Shown here one piece after another: positions 959 through 27,906 of a stretch of DNA of 47,320 nt. Within the stretch, counting starts at the first letter, position 1; the number at the start of each line of letters is the position of its first letter. The notes beneath the pieces were generated by a model, which saw only the letters and a program-made list of their open reading frames with translations, had not been told where the DNA came from and searched no databases. The stretch is taken from positions 1-47,320 of IMG/VR virus record IMGVR_UViG_3300037140_000063. One strand, given 5' to 3'. The position numbers and the translations under genes are program-made. This DNA is from a virus.

Positions 959-2791
959 CTAGACCCAGCCCGCCAGGACCGCGCTGGCGCCGCCGACCGT
1001 GCCGCGACATCCCCACGGCAGCGAGGCGCGCCGGTCGAACGAATTGCCGATCGGGAAGTATTGCGTTGACGGCAATTGGAAATATCCGGCCGAATTGATC
1101 GTCACCGCGCCGCCATTGGCTGCCGCCGCCGCCGCGACGCCGAACACCGAGCTTTTGTCGATCTTTTGACAGCCGACGATGAGCTGCAGCGTTCCAACGG
1201 AAAAATAGCTCGTGAAGATGACGCCATCGCCGCCGCCGCAGCATGGAGCTGGGCAACTCATGTCGCTAGCCGTCTGCGGCTGTTGGACAATAATGCCGAC
1301 CGGCAGGTCGTATGAAACGGCCCAGTTCATGCCACCCTGCGAAACGCCGAAGGATTGTCCACCGCTTCGCGACCATTGGATGTTGATTGCCCCAGGAGGG
1401 AGCACGCCATTCGACGGCGGAGACCCAAATACCGTCGAAACATATGTCCCGTTGAAATGCGTATTCTTCACGCCGACCGCATCGGAGAACGACAGCTGGT
1501 TGTGGACCGTCGCGCCATTGTTGAAATAACGCGAGAACACGACCGATGAGCCGCTCCAATCGAGATAGATGTTCACGACGCCAGTCTGACCGGACGCCAG
1601 GCTTGGCGCCGTCGTGTCGAGAACCACGTTCTGCTGGAGGCAGTTCCCGTTGAAATCGAAGAACGATCCATAGGTGTTCGGCTGAGCATTGAGCGCATGA
1701 CCGATGCAGAATCCAGCCGGCGTGATGCAGATCGGGTTCGCGACGGCGGCGTCATGGTAGCTCGCGCCGATGTCGACTTTCTTGACCAGCGCGCCGAGAT
1801 ACGAACACACATGCGCTTTCGAATAGGTGTCGGTGTCAGGGAGCATCCAGACGAAATTGTTCTGCGCCGGCGTGCCGGGATTGCTGTTCAGCTCGAACAG
1901 TCGATTTTTCGGCGGATGAACGAGGCCGAGATCTGGCTGCGCGAAATAGGTCGTTCCGGCGCACGGCATCTGCGGCCCCCACGTGATGGAGCCGGCCGCC
2001 GTGATGCGATAGATTTTGTGCTTCGTCGCCGTAGGATCATAGCATCCGACCAGGAAATCACCGTTCGCGCATGGGGTCGCGATGTGAAAGCCACCGTTGC
2101 CGAAGCTATCGATCGAGATGTTGGAGCCGACCAATGCTCCAGTAGACCCGTTGATAATCTGGCCAAGGAACGCCGATGAAGTCGCCCAGCCAAGATGGAA
2201 GTTCCCGCCGATGAGCGCGCATGCCGAATGCCACGGCACCTTGCCTGACGTAACGACGCTTGTCGAAAGCGTAAGGATTGATCCAATCATCACGCCGAAC
2301 TGCGTGAATGTCGCGCATTTCATCGTTGCGCTGGTATGCCAAATCAGTGAGAAGTTCCCGCCAATTAGCGGCAGAACCTCCGGGAACGTCGTGCATGTGT
2401 CTGTGGCGATGCTGAACGGAGGGCAAAGCTCTGAACCATTCGCCGCGTGGATGCGGAAACCTACGCCGATCGACCCGCGACAATGGATCGGGGTTATGAA
2501 ATATCCGCACGGCAATCGCACGGGATGACCGCATGAAAATGCCGTCGTGCAAGTGCTCGCAAATACGAGATCAGTGATTGGCGCGATGACCTCCAACACG
2601 ATCGGGACCGTGCCATCCGAGTTGAGGACGTTCCAAGGCAAGGACGGATCGGCTCGCCGGATCGCGCCGGAATCGTGAAGGCAGGTCAGTTCGCCGGAAC
2701 CGATGGCGCCCGTGGCATAAGCGTTGATCGTGCCTGTGGCAAGGAAGCCAGGATTAAGTGTGGTATCCGGCTTGCTTATGAACTGAGTGAT
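959..2791 (-). CDS. Hypothetical tail-appendage protein, probable ATC start
   Basis: About 610 residues if translation starts at the ATC codon at 2791-2789. The frame is open from a TAG just upstream, and an AGGAGG Shine-Dalgarno lies five bases before ATC. The first conventional start codon is a TTG at 2641, which has no ribosome binding site and would discard 50 residues that read like a normal phage N-terminus (ITQFISKPDTTLNPGF). The protein is rich in Gly, Ser, Asn and Cys, has no transmembrane segment that I recognise and matches no family I know. Its place after the fibre genes suggests a tail tip, fibre-associated or receptor-binding component. Alternative: the TTG at 2641 is the true start. 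Confidence 0.7.
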   Translation of the reverse strand: MTQFISKPDTTLNPGFLATGTINAYATGAIGSGELTCLHDSGAIRRADPSLPWNVLNSDGTVPIVLEVIAPITDLVFASTCTTAFSCGHPVRLPCGYFITPIHCRGSIGVGFRIHAANGSELCPPFSIATDTCTTFPEVLPLIGGNFSLIWHTSATMKCATFTQFGVMIGSILTLSTSVVTSGKVPWHSACALIGGNFHLGWATSSAFLGQIINGSTGALVGSNISIDSFGNGGFHIATPCANGDFLVGCYDPTATKHKIYRITAAGSITWGPQMPCAGTTYFAQPDLGLVHPPKNRLFELNSNPGTPAQNNFVWMLPDTDTYSKAHVCSYLGALVKKVDIGASYHDAAVANPICITPAGFCIGHALNAQPNTYGSFFDFNGNCLQQNVVLDTTAPSLASGQTGVVNIYLDWSGSSVVFSRYFNNGATVHNQLSFSDAVGVKNTHFNGTYVSTVFGSPPSNGVLPPGAINIQWSRSGGQSFGVSQGGMNWAVSYDLPVGIIVQQPQTASDMSCPAPCCGGGDGVIFTSYFSVGTLQLIVGCQKIDKSSVFGVAAAAAANGGAVTINSAGYFQLPSTQYFPIGNSFDRRASLPWGCRGTVGGASAVLAGWV

Positions 2792-3136: not shown

Positions 3137-4641
3137 CTACTAGAACCTTTCGCGGACAGCGGGTTAAGATCGCTCTTCAAAAACTCAACGCCATTGGCGT
3201 CAAAATGCTCCACAGCAATTTTATCCTTACGTGTGCCAATTAGGAGGACGTTGTATTTCCCCTTCAGCTCGAAAGTTGCATGGAGCAATGTCAATTCTTC
3301 ATTGACCGCACCGTAGCCGCGCCCGAAAGAATCGACGGAAGAGATCCAAACCTGGGGGTTCTCGTTCAGGTATTTCCAGTAGCCTGGCAGATCCAGCGAT
3401 AATGTTTGGTTGTCTTCGTCGGCTTCCATTAAGAAACGATAGATGTTGTCCCCACGAGTGGGACTTTCAACGAAGCAGTGTCGTAGCCTGTGTGTCGCGG
3501 TTTTTGCCGGATCGGGGTGATCGATCAGGAACGAACCAGACCCTTTCGACACCGATCCCGTAACCGTCAAATTTCCGGCAACGGTAAACGAACCAGTCGG
3601 CGAAAAGTTGCTAGGGCTGAAGTAACCTTTGGCTGTAACCCATGCCTGGGTGGCATAGCTCGATAATGCACTCGTCACGTAAGTCGTGGAAGCAATATTA
3701 TTGTAAGTCGCCCAATTGTTACACCATGCAGTGGTGGCGATCTGATTGGAGCTATTGGTATTCGACGCCGTTGGCGCGGTGGGGGTCCCGGTTAGCGCGG
3801 GCGAGGCTAGCGGGGCATAACCGGCGCTCGACGTGGCGTATCCTTGGCTTGTGACCCACGACTGAGTGGCGTAGGTGGAGAGACTGGCGATAGTGGCGTA
3901 GACGGTCAAACTAGAGATCGGTGCATAGGTAGAAGCAGCCACGCTGGTAGTCAGATAGGTGTTGCCCCCAAGAGCCGTCCACGCGGCTCCGGTGGTCGCG
4001 GCTTGAAGGATCGAAAGGCCAGTCGCTCCCGGTGTCGCTAGACCAAACGCTGTCAGCCACGCGCTGGCGTTGGTTAGAGGCATAAGCGTCCCGGAGAACG
4101 TGCTCGGGGCGAGGCTGCTCGCACTCGCCGCCGCCGCGATCGCACTGATTGCCGCCGATGTGGCGCTGCCCGACGCCGCCGCGGCGCTGCCCGACGCGGC
4201 GCTGGCGTCCGCAATAACGGCAAGCGCGGTCGCGACAACAGTCGCCGCCGCCGCAGCCGCCGCCGAGGCGCTGCTTTGCGCCGCTGTCGCGCTCACCGCC
4301 GCCGCGGTGGAAGCAGTCTGCGCGGCCGTTAGCGCTGAATTTACTTGCGCCGCAAGATTCGTGATGACTTCAGAGGTGATTGATCCACCAAGCGCGCCGC
4401 CGGTGACAACCGCCTGAGTGATCGACTCTTGCGCTGCCACGATGATGTTCGCCGCGGTTTGCGCCGCTTGAGCCGCTGCTGCCGCCGCTGCTGCGCTGGA
4501 CGCCGATTGCGCCGCCGCCACCATAGACGCCGAAAGCTTCGCTTGTGCCGCCGTGAGCGCGTCGGCGAGCGTCGGCGACATCGGGTTCGCGTCGGTCGAG
4601 TCGGGCGTCGCGCCGACAGTAAATACCGTGTCCGCGCACAT
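3133..4641 (-). CDS. Tail fibre protein with Ala-rich coiled repeats and chaperone-like tip
   Basis: A 502-residue protein. Residues about 20-190 are extremely rich in Ala and Ser in short heptad-like repeats (AAQSASSAAAAAAAAQ), typical of phage fibre shafts. Residues about 190-350 carry repeated short units such as STYATQSWVTSQGYA, also typical of trimeric fibres. The C-terminal 150 residues start with SFTVAGNLTVTGSVSKGSG and SFLIDHP...FVESPTRGDNIY, a motif I recall from the tips of many fibre and exported repeat proteins. I infer a host-recognition fibre. It starts exactly where the upstream fibre gene stops. GC-rich simple codon repeats make this region prone to recombination. Confidence 0.85.
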   Translation of the reverse strand: MCADTVFTVGATPDSTDANPMSPTLADALTAAQAKLSASMVAAAQSASSAAAAAAAAQAAQTAANIIVAAQESITQAVVTGGALGGSITSEVITNLAAQVNSALTAAQTASTAAAVSATAAQSSASAAAAAAATVVATALAVIADASAASGSAAAASGSATSAAISAIAAAASASSLAPSTFSGTLMPLTNASAWLTAFGLATPGATGLSILQAATTGAAWTALGGNTYLTTSVAASTYAPISSLTVYATIASLSTYATQSWVTSQGYATSSAGYAPLASPALTGTPTAPTASNTNSSNQIATTAWCNNWATYNNIASTTYVTSALSSYATQAWVTAKGYFSPSNFSPTGSFTVAGNLTVTGSVSKGSGSFLIDHPDPAKTATHRLRHCFVESPTRGDNIYRFLMEADEDNQTLSLDLPGYWKYLNENPQVWISSVDSFGRGYGAVNEELTLLHATFELKGKYNVLLIGTRKDKIAVEHFDANGVEFLKSDLNPLSAKGSSR

Positions 4642-16286: not shown

Positions 16287-16664
16287 TTACGATGACATTT
16301 CTTGGAGGGTAATACCTTCCAACGTCACGTCGACCTTGCCGTCGTGCGCATCGATCACGAACGCGCTGGTCGTCCACGCCTGCGTCAGCACGTAGGTCAT
16401 GCCGTTGGCTAGATTTACCTGCGCGGTGACGTTGGTGAGACCCTCAAGCACATCCAGCGATAGCTGATTGCCGATCGACCAATCGCCTTTTATGGAAGGA
16501 ACCAATGGCTCTTCGATATAACCGTGAACCGTATCCTGACCGGCGACGCCAGTCCTCTTGACGGTCATGCCGGTTACTTGAAAGTTACCACGCGCTTCAT
16601 AAGTTTGCCCTCCCACTATAATTGCGAGAAGACCACCAATACGATTGGTGTTGTTGGTTGCCAT
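16287..16664 (-). CDS. Tail tube protein (Mu gpM-like)
   Basis: A 125-residue protein of the usual length for phage tail tubes. The family features are the N-terminal NRIGGLLAIIVGGQTYEARGNF, the central VKRTGVAGQDTVHGYIEEPLVPSIKGDWSIG, and the C-terminal MTYVLTQAWTTSAFVIDAHDGKVDVTLEGIT (Tail_tube pattern LxxAxxxxxxxxxxxxGxxxxxFxG). It polymerises into the inner tube of the contractile tail. It follows the sheath gene and precedes the assembly chaperone, as in Mu. Translation starts from a structured leader duplicated in front of the sheath gene; a GGAG site lies eight bases before the ATG. Confidence 0.93.
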   Translation of the reverse strand: MATNNTNRIGGLLAIIVGGQTYEARGNFQVTGMTVKRTGVAGQDTVHGYIEEPLVPSIKGDWSIGNQLSLDVLEGLTNVTAQVNLANGMTYVLTQAWTTSAFVIDAHDGKVDVTLEGITLQEMSS

Positions 16665-16764
16665 GACGTGGCTCCATCTGAGGGATGGCCGGCGCTGTCA
16701 CAGCGCTGGCTCGCGGGCGTCTCACGACGCGCGCAAAGGAGTTGCCCGAAGGAATACGGGCAAT
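16665..16764 (-). repeat. Structured 100-nt leader of the tube gene (copy 1 of 2)
   Basis: RNA-strand order: hairpin TTGCCCG/CGGGCAA; hairpin GCGTC-GTGA-GACGC with a GNRA loop; spacer CCGCGAGCCA; hairpin GCGCTG-TGA-CAGCGC; hairpin CCATC-CCTCA-GATGG that contains the GGAG ribosome site, then the ATG. A copy of equal length and the same fold lies before the sheath gene, with different stem bases that still pair. Confidence 0.75.
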
Positions 16765-16787
16765 AAAAAACCCGCCGTTAGGCGGAC
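16765..16787 (-). terminator. Rho-independent terminator after the sheath gene
   Basis: Coding-strand hairpin TCCGCC-TAAC-GGCGGG followed by six T. It lies between the sheath stop and the tube leader, so part of sheath transcription should end here and the tube gene may depend on read-through or a local promoter. Confidence 0.8.
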
Positions 16788-16824
16788 TTGATTGATGTCG
16801 ATGCTAATATATAGTATAGATTTA

Positions 16825-18342
16825 TTAGTTAGTAGCAACAGGAGGATAAAGCAACCGAAATTGGGCAAGCGCATTGAATTGTCGAAGTTGCCCAGCAAGC
16901 TGAGGAGGGTATAATACGTCGATTTTATTCGGGTTATTGTTGTCTATCTGGACGATCAGATTTGCCTTGAAGTCCGGTAGGTCAGCGACGAGGCCGTTAT
17001 ACATCGCATTCACGAATTCGGCGACGAGTTCGGCCTTGATCACAGATGGCGTAACAATCGCCTGGCCAGGTCCATACGCTGTGCCGTCCGGGACAAGTTT
17101 GACGCGCGGATATTTGCTGGTGATCGCCGACTTCATGGCGCTGAGAAGCGCGGTAAGCGTCGACAACACGGTCAGTAATCCGAATGCGGTATCGGCCTGT
17201 CCATAGCTGTTGAGCTGATACTGCGTCTGCTCACGTAGGATCATCGGATTGCCGTCAGGCGCGACCGATTGGATCGCGAAGCCGCTGTTCGTCAGATTGT
17301 TGAGCTGGGCCTGCGAGTAGCGGTTTTGCACTGCCGCCGGAAGAATTCCGATCATCTCAAGCGTTTGCAGTGGGCGCGCCGGGTCATCCGAGAATCCAAG
17401 TGCCGCTAGGCCGGCATAGGCAGCGGTCCATTCCCAGATCGGCGACGGGGCCAGCTGCTCGATCGCCATCGTCGAGATCACGGGAGAATTTTGCGCGAGC
17501 CCCCAAGTGATCGAATCCGCGTAATCGTTGCGAAGGGCGTTGACCATGAATCCGTATTGCTGGCGCGAGTAGTTCCAACGACCACCTGACGAGAACCCAA
17601 ACTCCGTCGCCCAGGCCGTCTGCGACGCGCTGTCCGTGTAAGGCATCGCGACATAGAAGAACTGCAGCGCCTGTATCGCCGAGATAGCCGAGGTGAAAGT
17701 CGGCTCGCTCGTGCCGCCATTCATCGCGACAATCGTCAGCGTCAGGCCAACGGGCAACGCCTGCCCGCCATAGGCGCCGAGATAGTTCGGAATGATCGTA
17801 AAATCGTTGCCGGTGAGTCCCTTCCAATCGCATGTCAGCGCCACGACGCCAGTTGTGGCGACCGCCGTAATCGCGAGATCATTATTCGCGTTGATCGCCG
17901 CGGCCAGATTGGTCGCTACGGTCGCGACTAGATCGGTCGAGCCGACGGCGGTTTGGATCAGCTGTCCGCCGATGTAAATGAATAGCGTGCCAGATTGCGT
18001 TGGCGCGGTCGCGATGGTGATCGAGCCCGTCGCCGCGACGCCGGCGCCCGGATCGGGAACAGGGATCGCATAGAGCAACTGATTGGTGTTGACGGCGAAC
18101 CAGGATGCCACCATGCGGGCGAGCATCGAGCCCTGGCCAAATAGGTTTTTGGCCATCGCAACTGAACCAACCGGAACCGGCACATTCGCGACGCAGGTCC
18201 CGGCATTCGCGCCAGTGGCGTTGTATTGACCGACGAGCAGGGCGGGCTGAGACTGCGTAAGGTTGCCCGCCATCGAACCATCGACGGATATCCATACCAG
18301 CGGCAGCTGCCAGGACTCGGGAATTCCGGTTGAAACTGCCAT
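16825..18342 (-). CDS. Tail sheath protein (Mu gpL-like)
   Basis: A 505-residue protein of typical sheath length. It starts MAVSTGIPESWQLPLVWISVDGS and contains LLVGQYNATGANAGTCVANVPVPVGSVAMAKNLFGQGSMLARM, the early sheath motif (..G.......SA..A..LFG.GS.L..M). Residues about 104-195 form an inserted beta domain (GSITIATAPTQSGTLFIYIGGQLIQ). The C-terminal part FTSAISAIQALQFFYVAMPYTD and the end NKIDVLYPPQLAGQLRQFNALAQFRL are also family features. It contracts to drive the tube into the cell envelope. A terminator lies before its leader and another after its stop. Confidence 0.95.
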   Translation of the reverse strand: MAVSTGIPESWQLPLVWISVDGSMAGNLTQSQPALLVGQYNATGANAGTCVANVPVPVGSVAMAKNLFGQGSMLARMVASWFAVNTNQLLYAIPVPDPGAGVAATGSITIATAPTQSGTLFIYIGGQLIQTAVGSTDLVATVATNLAAAINANNDLAITAVATTGVVALTCDWKGLTGNDFTIIPNYLGAYGGQALPVGLTLTIVAMNGGTSEPTFTSAISAIQALQFFYVAMPYTDSASQTAWATEFGFSSGGRWNYSRQQYGFMVNALRNDYADSITWGLAQNSPVISTMAIEQLAPSPIWEWTAAYAGLAALGFSDDPARPLQTLEMIGILPAAVQNRYSQAQLNNLTNSGFAIQSVAPDGNPMILREQTQYQLNSYGQADTAFGLLTVLSTLTALLSAMKSAITSKYPRVKLVPDGTAYGPGQAIVTPSVIKAELVAEFVNAMYNGLVADLPDFKANLIVQIDNNNPNKIDVLYPPQLAGQLRQFNALAQFRLLYPPVATN

Positions 18343-18442
18343 AAGCTGGCTCCATCAAGAGGGACGGCCGGCGTCATCACGACGCGGGCTTGCGGGCGCT
18401 TCACAGCGCGCGCGCGACCTTGCCAGGGGTCGAATGGGCAAC
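18343..18442 (-). repeat. Structured 100-nt leader of the sheath gene (copy 2 of 2)
   Basis: RNA-strand order: hairpin TTGCC/GGCAA; hairpin GCGCT-GTGA-AGCGC; spacer CCGCAAGCCC; hairpin GCGTC-GTGAT-GACGC; hairpin CCGTC-CCTCTT-GATGG overlapping the GGAG ribosome site. The stem sequences of the second and third hairpins are exchanged relative to the tube leader, yet both still fold. Confidence 0.75.
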
Positions 18443-18466
18443 AAAAAACCCGCCATGAGGCGGGCT
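18443..18466 (-). terminator. Rho-independent terminator before the sheath leader
   Basis: Coding-strand hairpin GCCCGCC-TCAT-GGCGGG followed by six T, 29 bases after the stop of the DUF2635 gene. It separates head/neck transcription from the sheath leader. Confidence 0.8.
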
Positions 18467-27836: not shown

Positions 27837-27906
27837 ACACGCTGGCGGGATTCGAACCCGCGACCTGTCCCTCGGGGACTGCTCTATCCAGGTGAGCTAC
27901 AGCGAC
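27837..27906 (-). tRNA. tRNA-like element with a shortened anticodon loop
   Basis: 70 bases on the minus strand fold as a tRNA. D-arm GCTC-ACCTGGATA-GAGC. T-arm GCGGG-TTCGAAT-CCCGC, canonical. Acceptor: the five inner pairs CGCTG/CAGCG, but the two outermost positions do not pair. Anticodon arm: GTCCC/GGGAC with only three loop bases (CGA) instead of seven, followed by a normal five-base AGGTC variable region. No encoded CCA (GGC follows the discriminator). It is therefore four bases shorter than a normal tRNA, exactly in the anticodon loop, and cannot decode in the usual way. Could be a degraded tRNA or a functional tRNA mimic. Confidence 0.6.

Follow-up and report, generated by a model that had tools for sequence, protein, structure and literature searches.

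A family of pseudoknotted leader RNAs before high-copy virion genes of phages, with a probable role in translation initiation

Why should the tail sheath gene and the tail tube gene of one phage each stand behind a terminator and a leader of nearly the same length? The question is raised by an IMG/VR virus record, analysed here over its full 47,320 nucleotides (the window), whose structural genes are of myovirus type, lie on the minus strand, and include a sheath protein akin to those of SfV- and Mu-type phages (34-45% identity among cultured phages). A sequence-only reading of this DNA had described a terminator and then a leader of about 100 bases before both genes, folded into four hairpins preserved by selection, and had proposed that the leaders either set high and balanced expression of the two proteins or serve a tail protein as a feedback repressor site. 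The arrangement is indeed present, with leaders of 104 and 103 nt. Its parts are listed below, where R1 is a covariance model described further on and SD stands for Shine-Dalgarno sequence.

18447..18466, minus strand: terminator-like (intrinsic) hairpin ahead of the sheath leader
18343..18446, minus strand: sheath leader RNA, 104 nt (R1 match 18347-18440; alignment with the tube leader)
18415..18432, minus strand: sheath hairpin 1, CGACC/GGUCG, loop CCUGGCAA (from sequence; family helix 1 covaries at 5/5 pairs)
18392..18413, minus strand: sheath hairpin 2, an extra copy of the hairpin-3 module
18367..18389, minus strand: sheath hairpin 3, the conserved core hairpin (plan scan; family helix 2 covariation)
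18350..18353, minus strand: sheath SD GGAG, within conserved GAUGGAGCC
18346..18350, minus strand: sheath post-SD strand GCCAG, complement of CUGGC in the hairpin-1 loop (pseudoknot; family covariation)
16825..18342, minus strand: tail sheath gene (PF04984, PF17482, phrog_165), the first leader-bearing gene
16768..16789, minus strand: terminator-like (intrinsic) hairpin ahead of the tube leader
16665..16767, minus strand: tube leader RNA, 103 nt (R1 match 16669-16740)
16742..16763, minus strand: tube hairpin 1 in its folded form, UUGCCCG/CGGGCAA (lacks the hairpin-1 stem that is usual in the family)
16713..16734, minus strand: tube hairpin 2, an extra copy of the hairpin-3 module
16688..16710, minus strand: tube hairpin 3, the conserved core hairpin (plan scan; family helix 2 covariation)
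16672..16675, minus strand: tube SD GGAG, within conserved GAUGGAGCC
16669..16672, minus strand: tube post-SD strand GCCA, 3 bp with loop GGC (weaker pseudoknot; sequence and family covariation)
16287..16664, minus strand: tail tube gene (PF10618, phrog_185), the second leader-bearing gene

The capsid gene of the window, though also an abundant virion gene, has no leader in an R1 scan of the window. Elsewhere in the window, an Rfam tRNA model matches positions 27840-27904 (minus strand) with 39 bits, at a site not called by ARAGORN.

Hairpins 2 and 3 follow a single plan in both leaders, with a 3-bp outer stem, a 1x1 C.C or A.C mismatch, a 5-bp inner stem, and a loop of GUGA or GUGA plus one base; on both strands of the 47 kb, this plan with a GUGA loop occurs at the four leader sites and at one other. 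The central stems are swapped, as had been noticed, GCGCU/AGCGC and GCGUC/GACGC trading places between hairpins 2 and 3, and stem bases in these hairpins differ between the copies in a compensated way that keeps the pairing and the GUGA loops. The likeness of all four hairpins, in turn, holds for hairpins 2 and 3 but not for hairpin 1, which is a different helix in each leader, the usual stem having been lost in that of the tube gene. A fourth hairpin over the ribosome site (CCRUC/GAUGG) is present in the two leaders of the window without being conserved across the wider family, and it was dropped as a family-wide feature since its two variable pairs can form in just 58 of 97 distinct elements. 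What is general there is a short UCC..GGA pairing, nearly invariant and, because it hardly varies, beyond covariation testing. Fold z-scores for the leaders alone are -1.8 (sheath) and -4.1 (tube), so that thermodynamics by themselves are modest and the case rests on covariation with relatives.

Because the nearest sheath homologues have no leader, relatives were sought with the leader DNA itself, using patterns drawn first from the stretch between hairpin 3 and the SD, then loosened, then given a variant outer stem. These matched six other contigs, 38 stretches and 85 stretches, respectively, nearly all of them true elements directly before a virion gene; five loci that fit DNA patterns and lack the structure or gene context (L107, L118, L119, L123 and L236) were rejected. 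R1, built from 20 pattern-found leaders of other phages with the window excluded, matches the tube leader at E 1.4e-11 and the sheath leader at E 1.1e-10, the next best match in the window having 0.17, and both leaders share the family core of a mismatch hairpin with a GNRA-type loop, UCCC..GAUGGAG, and a virion gene behind. About 100 more distinct copies occur in viral contigs and in prophages of Hyphomicrobiales, most of them found with patterns that fix TCCC and GATGGAG, the invariance of both being partly imposed. R1 also finds second copies within the same phages, for example before a scaffold gene that precedes the capsid gene by 1.1 kb, and loci fetched by capsid protein, with no DNA pattern used, carry the leader as well, which argues that the family is not a pattern artefact.

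Blastn of the window leaders against 50,697 phage records returned terminators only, consensus queries against cultured phages gave no convincing match, and among LUZ24-like and related cultured or named phages R1 had no match, their scaffold-capsid gap being too short for a leader. Rfam 15 has no RNA match over the leaders of the window and ten other carriers, and a lax Rfam search of four short loci gave narK as its sole match (19.5 bits), outside the leader. A literature search, in which coverage of the field is incomplete, found no description of such a leader, which we rate a new RNA family, apparently undescribed, of a known general kind and with an unusual regulon. As a separate observation, capsid genes of the LUZ24-like contigs L103 (2690-3700), L101, L104 and L115 look interrupted by an insert soon after their start; the insert of L103 holds an HNH-like open reading frame and is a possible intron.

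Covariation across other phages supports the earlier claim that the structure is kept by selection. In an alignment of 98 distinct elements, the cells of both nested helices are 95.9% paired and include 255 two-sided ones, where shuffles give 84 and slid versions 15-33; the alignment had been fitted to the tested structure and is to that extent biased in its favour. Helix 1 covaries at all five of its pairs, while helix 2 is 99.6% paired, with two-sided changes at 5 of 8 pairs.

A further contact, absent from the sequence-only reading, joins the loop of hairpin 1 (..NGGC..) to the bases just after the SD GGAG (GCCN), and was first hinted at by RNAalifold on the first 20 elements. Of 53 distinct elements, 31 have a Watson-Crick outer pair here, against 17.8 expected (0/20000 permutations), and own loops with own post-SD strands beat exchanged ones (0/20000 overall, 61/20000 within the GGC group), in tests that do not fully allow for the kinship of the sequences; all four Watson-Crick pair types occur, and slid controls do worse. 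Loops that read GCGGGAC(C) instead of GGC have a matching post-SD strand, G(G)UCCC or GUCUCGC, and variant loop/post-SD pairs include GGGAUC/GAUCCC (L179), GGGACC/GGUCCC (L182) and GCGGGAC/GUCUCGC (L225). In the window, the sheath leader has the full 5 bp, CUGGC/GCCAG, whereas the tube leader is reduced to 3 bp, GGC/GCC. Hairpin 1 and the post-SD GCC tend to co-occur or to be absent together (Fisher p 2e-6), both being missing in scaffold-gene leaders and L245, and since the former lack hairpin 1 the pseudoknot is not required everywhere.

Scaffold and protease apart, nearly all genes behind the leader encode high-copy virion parts. Among 65 downstream proteins Pfam recognises Phage_capsid, SU10_MCP, Phage_cap_E, Phage_tube_2, Tail_tube, Phage_tail_3, TTP_11, TTP_12, sheath, cement, and prohead protease, which places the leader before three unrelated families of major capsid protein and five of tail tube; PHROGs adds head scaffolding and labels one group of nine as ‘minor tail protein’ (phrog_290). 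Carrier phages have one to three copies, and scaffold and capsid genes of one and the same phage can both have it. Relatives with leaders had been called for as a check on the original observation, and they exist: other myoviruses carry one before sheath and/or tube (L165, L171, L180, L182, L187/G767, L210 and L237), several of them before both. The sheath homologues of highest identity (59-72%) have no such leader, from which it follows that the leader moves independently of the sheath gene.

Some loci near these genes deserve mention in their own right. Relatives without the leader keep terminator-like hairpins, before the sheath gene in L003 and before the tube gene in L007 and L063/L088. 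A sheath relative (48%), L020, has another short leader, ..CCGAGGGCCATGAC..CCCGCGC..GCGGGAA..GGAGGA, repeated before sheath and tube (2050-2190 and about 3690-3770), and to judge from its sequence paired sheath/tube leaders may have more than one origin. In the structural region of L126 (5920-5990, minus strand), a tRNA lies directly ahead of a leader copy.

The distribution of the family also points to a host. R1 matches at E <= 1e-4 were obtained in 9 of 398 genomes of Hyphomicrobiales, the order of G003, a Bradyrhizobium (best 2e-16), and in 0 of 369 Gammaproteobacteria, the class of G006 in GTDB, an empty result that alone is weakly telling. An even draw of 385 Alphaproteobacteria yielded five matches at E <= 0.001, L141 and L145 being judged real; genome matches L138, L140, L143 and L144 are at chance level, as are those in Sinorhizobium meliloti, which fall inside the ISRm21 transposase. 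Two hosts can be named, Kaistia dalseonensis (L139) and Sinorhizobium medicae SU277 (L156), with the leader on plasmid pSU277_1 of the latter species at E 1e-13, and one prophage (L365) has, before its tail tube gene, the window layout of terminator, UUGCCC, hairpin 1, doubled core hairpin, and SD. Because leader-bearing prophages and named hosts belong to this order, and given the layout of L365, the window phage probably infects a member of Hyphomicrobiales. In the Kaistia dalseonensis prophage (match 1501-1567, minus strand), the core hairpin is reverse-complemented, with loop AUCAC for GUGAU, and hairpin 1 and the SD part are in the usual orientation nonetheless.

Covariation thus establishes the helices and the pseudoknot of a leader family sited before the start codons of virion genes. 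We consider, with a probability of roughly 0.6, that these leaders are one family of Hyphomicrobiales phages and serve as cis-acting translation-initiation elements for high-copy virion genes. Control of initiation in cis is what we infer from the sequences, and an effect at this step is the most direct reading because most members of the family place the SD 6-9 nt ahead of the start codon and the conserved contacts are made at the ribosome-binding site. Action at this site of abundant tail proteins, as first suggested, appears well founded on these grounds, over a wider range of genes than had been noted. The leader begins, at its 5′ side, with hairpin 1 and its loop CUUNGGCAA; next comes a hairpin of 3+5 bp (or 3+4 bp), interrupted by a 1x1 mismatch and closed by a GNRA-type loop, of which the window has two, and then a C-rich UCCC strand, the SD GAUGGAG, and a GCCN that pairs back into the hairpin-1 loop. 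In the mechanism that we propose, pseudoknot and UCC/GGA pairing would fold the ribosome site, whose opening or presentation would decide initiation, so that the fold could hold back or boost translation and the leader would set how much protein the high-copy virion genes yield from a long late mRNA. High and balanced expression is the more likely of the two functions first suggested.

Whether a partner takes part bears on the alternatives. A phage gene shared by 16 carriers, the window included, was sought in 20-kb pieces with greedy open reading frames, where divergent small proteins could be missed, and none was present in more than seven, the top families being long proteins; hence the leader either works without a trans factor or takes one from the host. 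The latter would suit a switch, a rival and less likely reading, in which the loop of hairpin 1 has two alternative partners, an upstream UGCC(C) and the post-SD strand, and a host signal, protein or small RNA could flip the ribosome site open or closed. Complementarity between the upstream strand and its own loop emerges from a flexible test (2/20000; 16/20000 in the GGC group) and the strand occurs in both window leaders (UUGCC..GGCAA), but its distance varies and pairing at a fixed register has no support and was rejected, leaving the flexible test alone as a suggestion. Somewhat more speculatively, unrelated phages of Hyphomicrobiales might have exchanged one RNA family that makes a common regulon of their high-copy virion genes (capsid, tube, sheath, and scaffold), with the hairpin-1 loop toggling between upstream and post-SD strands on a host factor. 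It is rather unlikely that the leader is instead an mRNA stabiliser or processing boundary shielding the 5′ ends of processed mRNAs of the abundant genes, perhaps through a block to a 5′ exonuclease: the hairpins, which are stable, and the pseudoknot on the 5′ side of these genes, with terminators or stop codons just upstream, would fit this, but the conserved contact involves the bases around the SD and not just the 5′ end.

Feedback by the encoded tail protein on its own leader, the other function first suggested, is improbable. The leader's position over the ribosome site would suit such an operator, and T4 gp32 offers a precedent for a phage pseudoknot operator (PMC3014915), but genes of unrelated families, for capsid, tube, sheath, cement, scaffold, and protease, all have the leader, and within one phage it serves both scaffold and capsid genes. 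With downstream proteins so unrelated and no gene in more than seven of the 16 carriers, the encoded product is not a general ligand. Still less credible is a DNA-level feature (a binding palindrome, a mobile repeat, or a recombination linker between modules), which palindromic arms and the leader's absence from the closest sheath homologues might suggest, since orientation before the start codon is fixed and loop/post-SD covariation and G.U pairs are only sensible in RNA. Equally hard to credit is an antitermination signal of the boxB/nut kind for read-through of the preceding terminators: terminators adjoin the leaders, the 5-bp stem with its GNRA(-like) pentaloop resembles boxB, and the sheath leader does lie upstream of the sheath/tube terminator, but each leader is downstream of its adjacent terminator, T-runs of at least 5 lie upstream in just 9 of 106 distinct elements, and no common N-like gene was found among the 16 carriers, where a small divergent one could be missed.

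Several known RNAs resemble the leader in part. Riboswitches of the preQ1-II and SAM-II types sequester the SD in a pseudoknot, and like them the leader has a loop that pairs with the ribosome-site region, as covariation indicates here, an arrangement whose folding can control initiation; unlike them, it has no Rfam match and precedes virion rather than metabolic genes. The boxB hairpin in the nut sites of lambda and P22 is likewise a short stem with a GNRA-like loop in phage RNA, as is the core hairpin of the leader, which differs in its place just before late-gene start codons, its variable stem, its pseudoknot, and the lack of any N-like partner seen. Coat-protein operators of RNA phages (MS2/PP7) also have a small hairpin with an unpaired stem interruption at the ribosome site, whereas the leader belongs to double-stranded DNA phages, has another loop, and precedes genes for unrelated proteins. 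The T4/T2 gene 32 leader, in which gp32 binds its own mRNA at a pseudoknot operator near the ribosome site, was considered in a 2010 review to be perhaps the sole viral pseudoknot in translational autoregulation (PMC3014915). It shares with the present leader a pseudoknot near the ribosome site of a phage mRNA, but the latter precedes many unrelated virion genes, has its pseudoknot strand right after the SD, and lacks the specificity to the binding protein's gene that defines an autogenous operator. By analogy, it perhaps works like the SD-region pseudoknots of riboswitches or like the gene 32 operator.

The family illustrates that Rfam misses cis-regulatory RNAs of phages with poorly cultured hosts. 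A phage needs its capsid and tail-tube proteins by the hundred and portal or terminase in few copies, all from long shared mRNAs; a single RNA module reused before the abundant genes in unrelated phages would, if the proposed role is true, directly and testably explain how these ratios are set, and the leader would then serve as a portable expression part for Rhizobiales.
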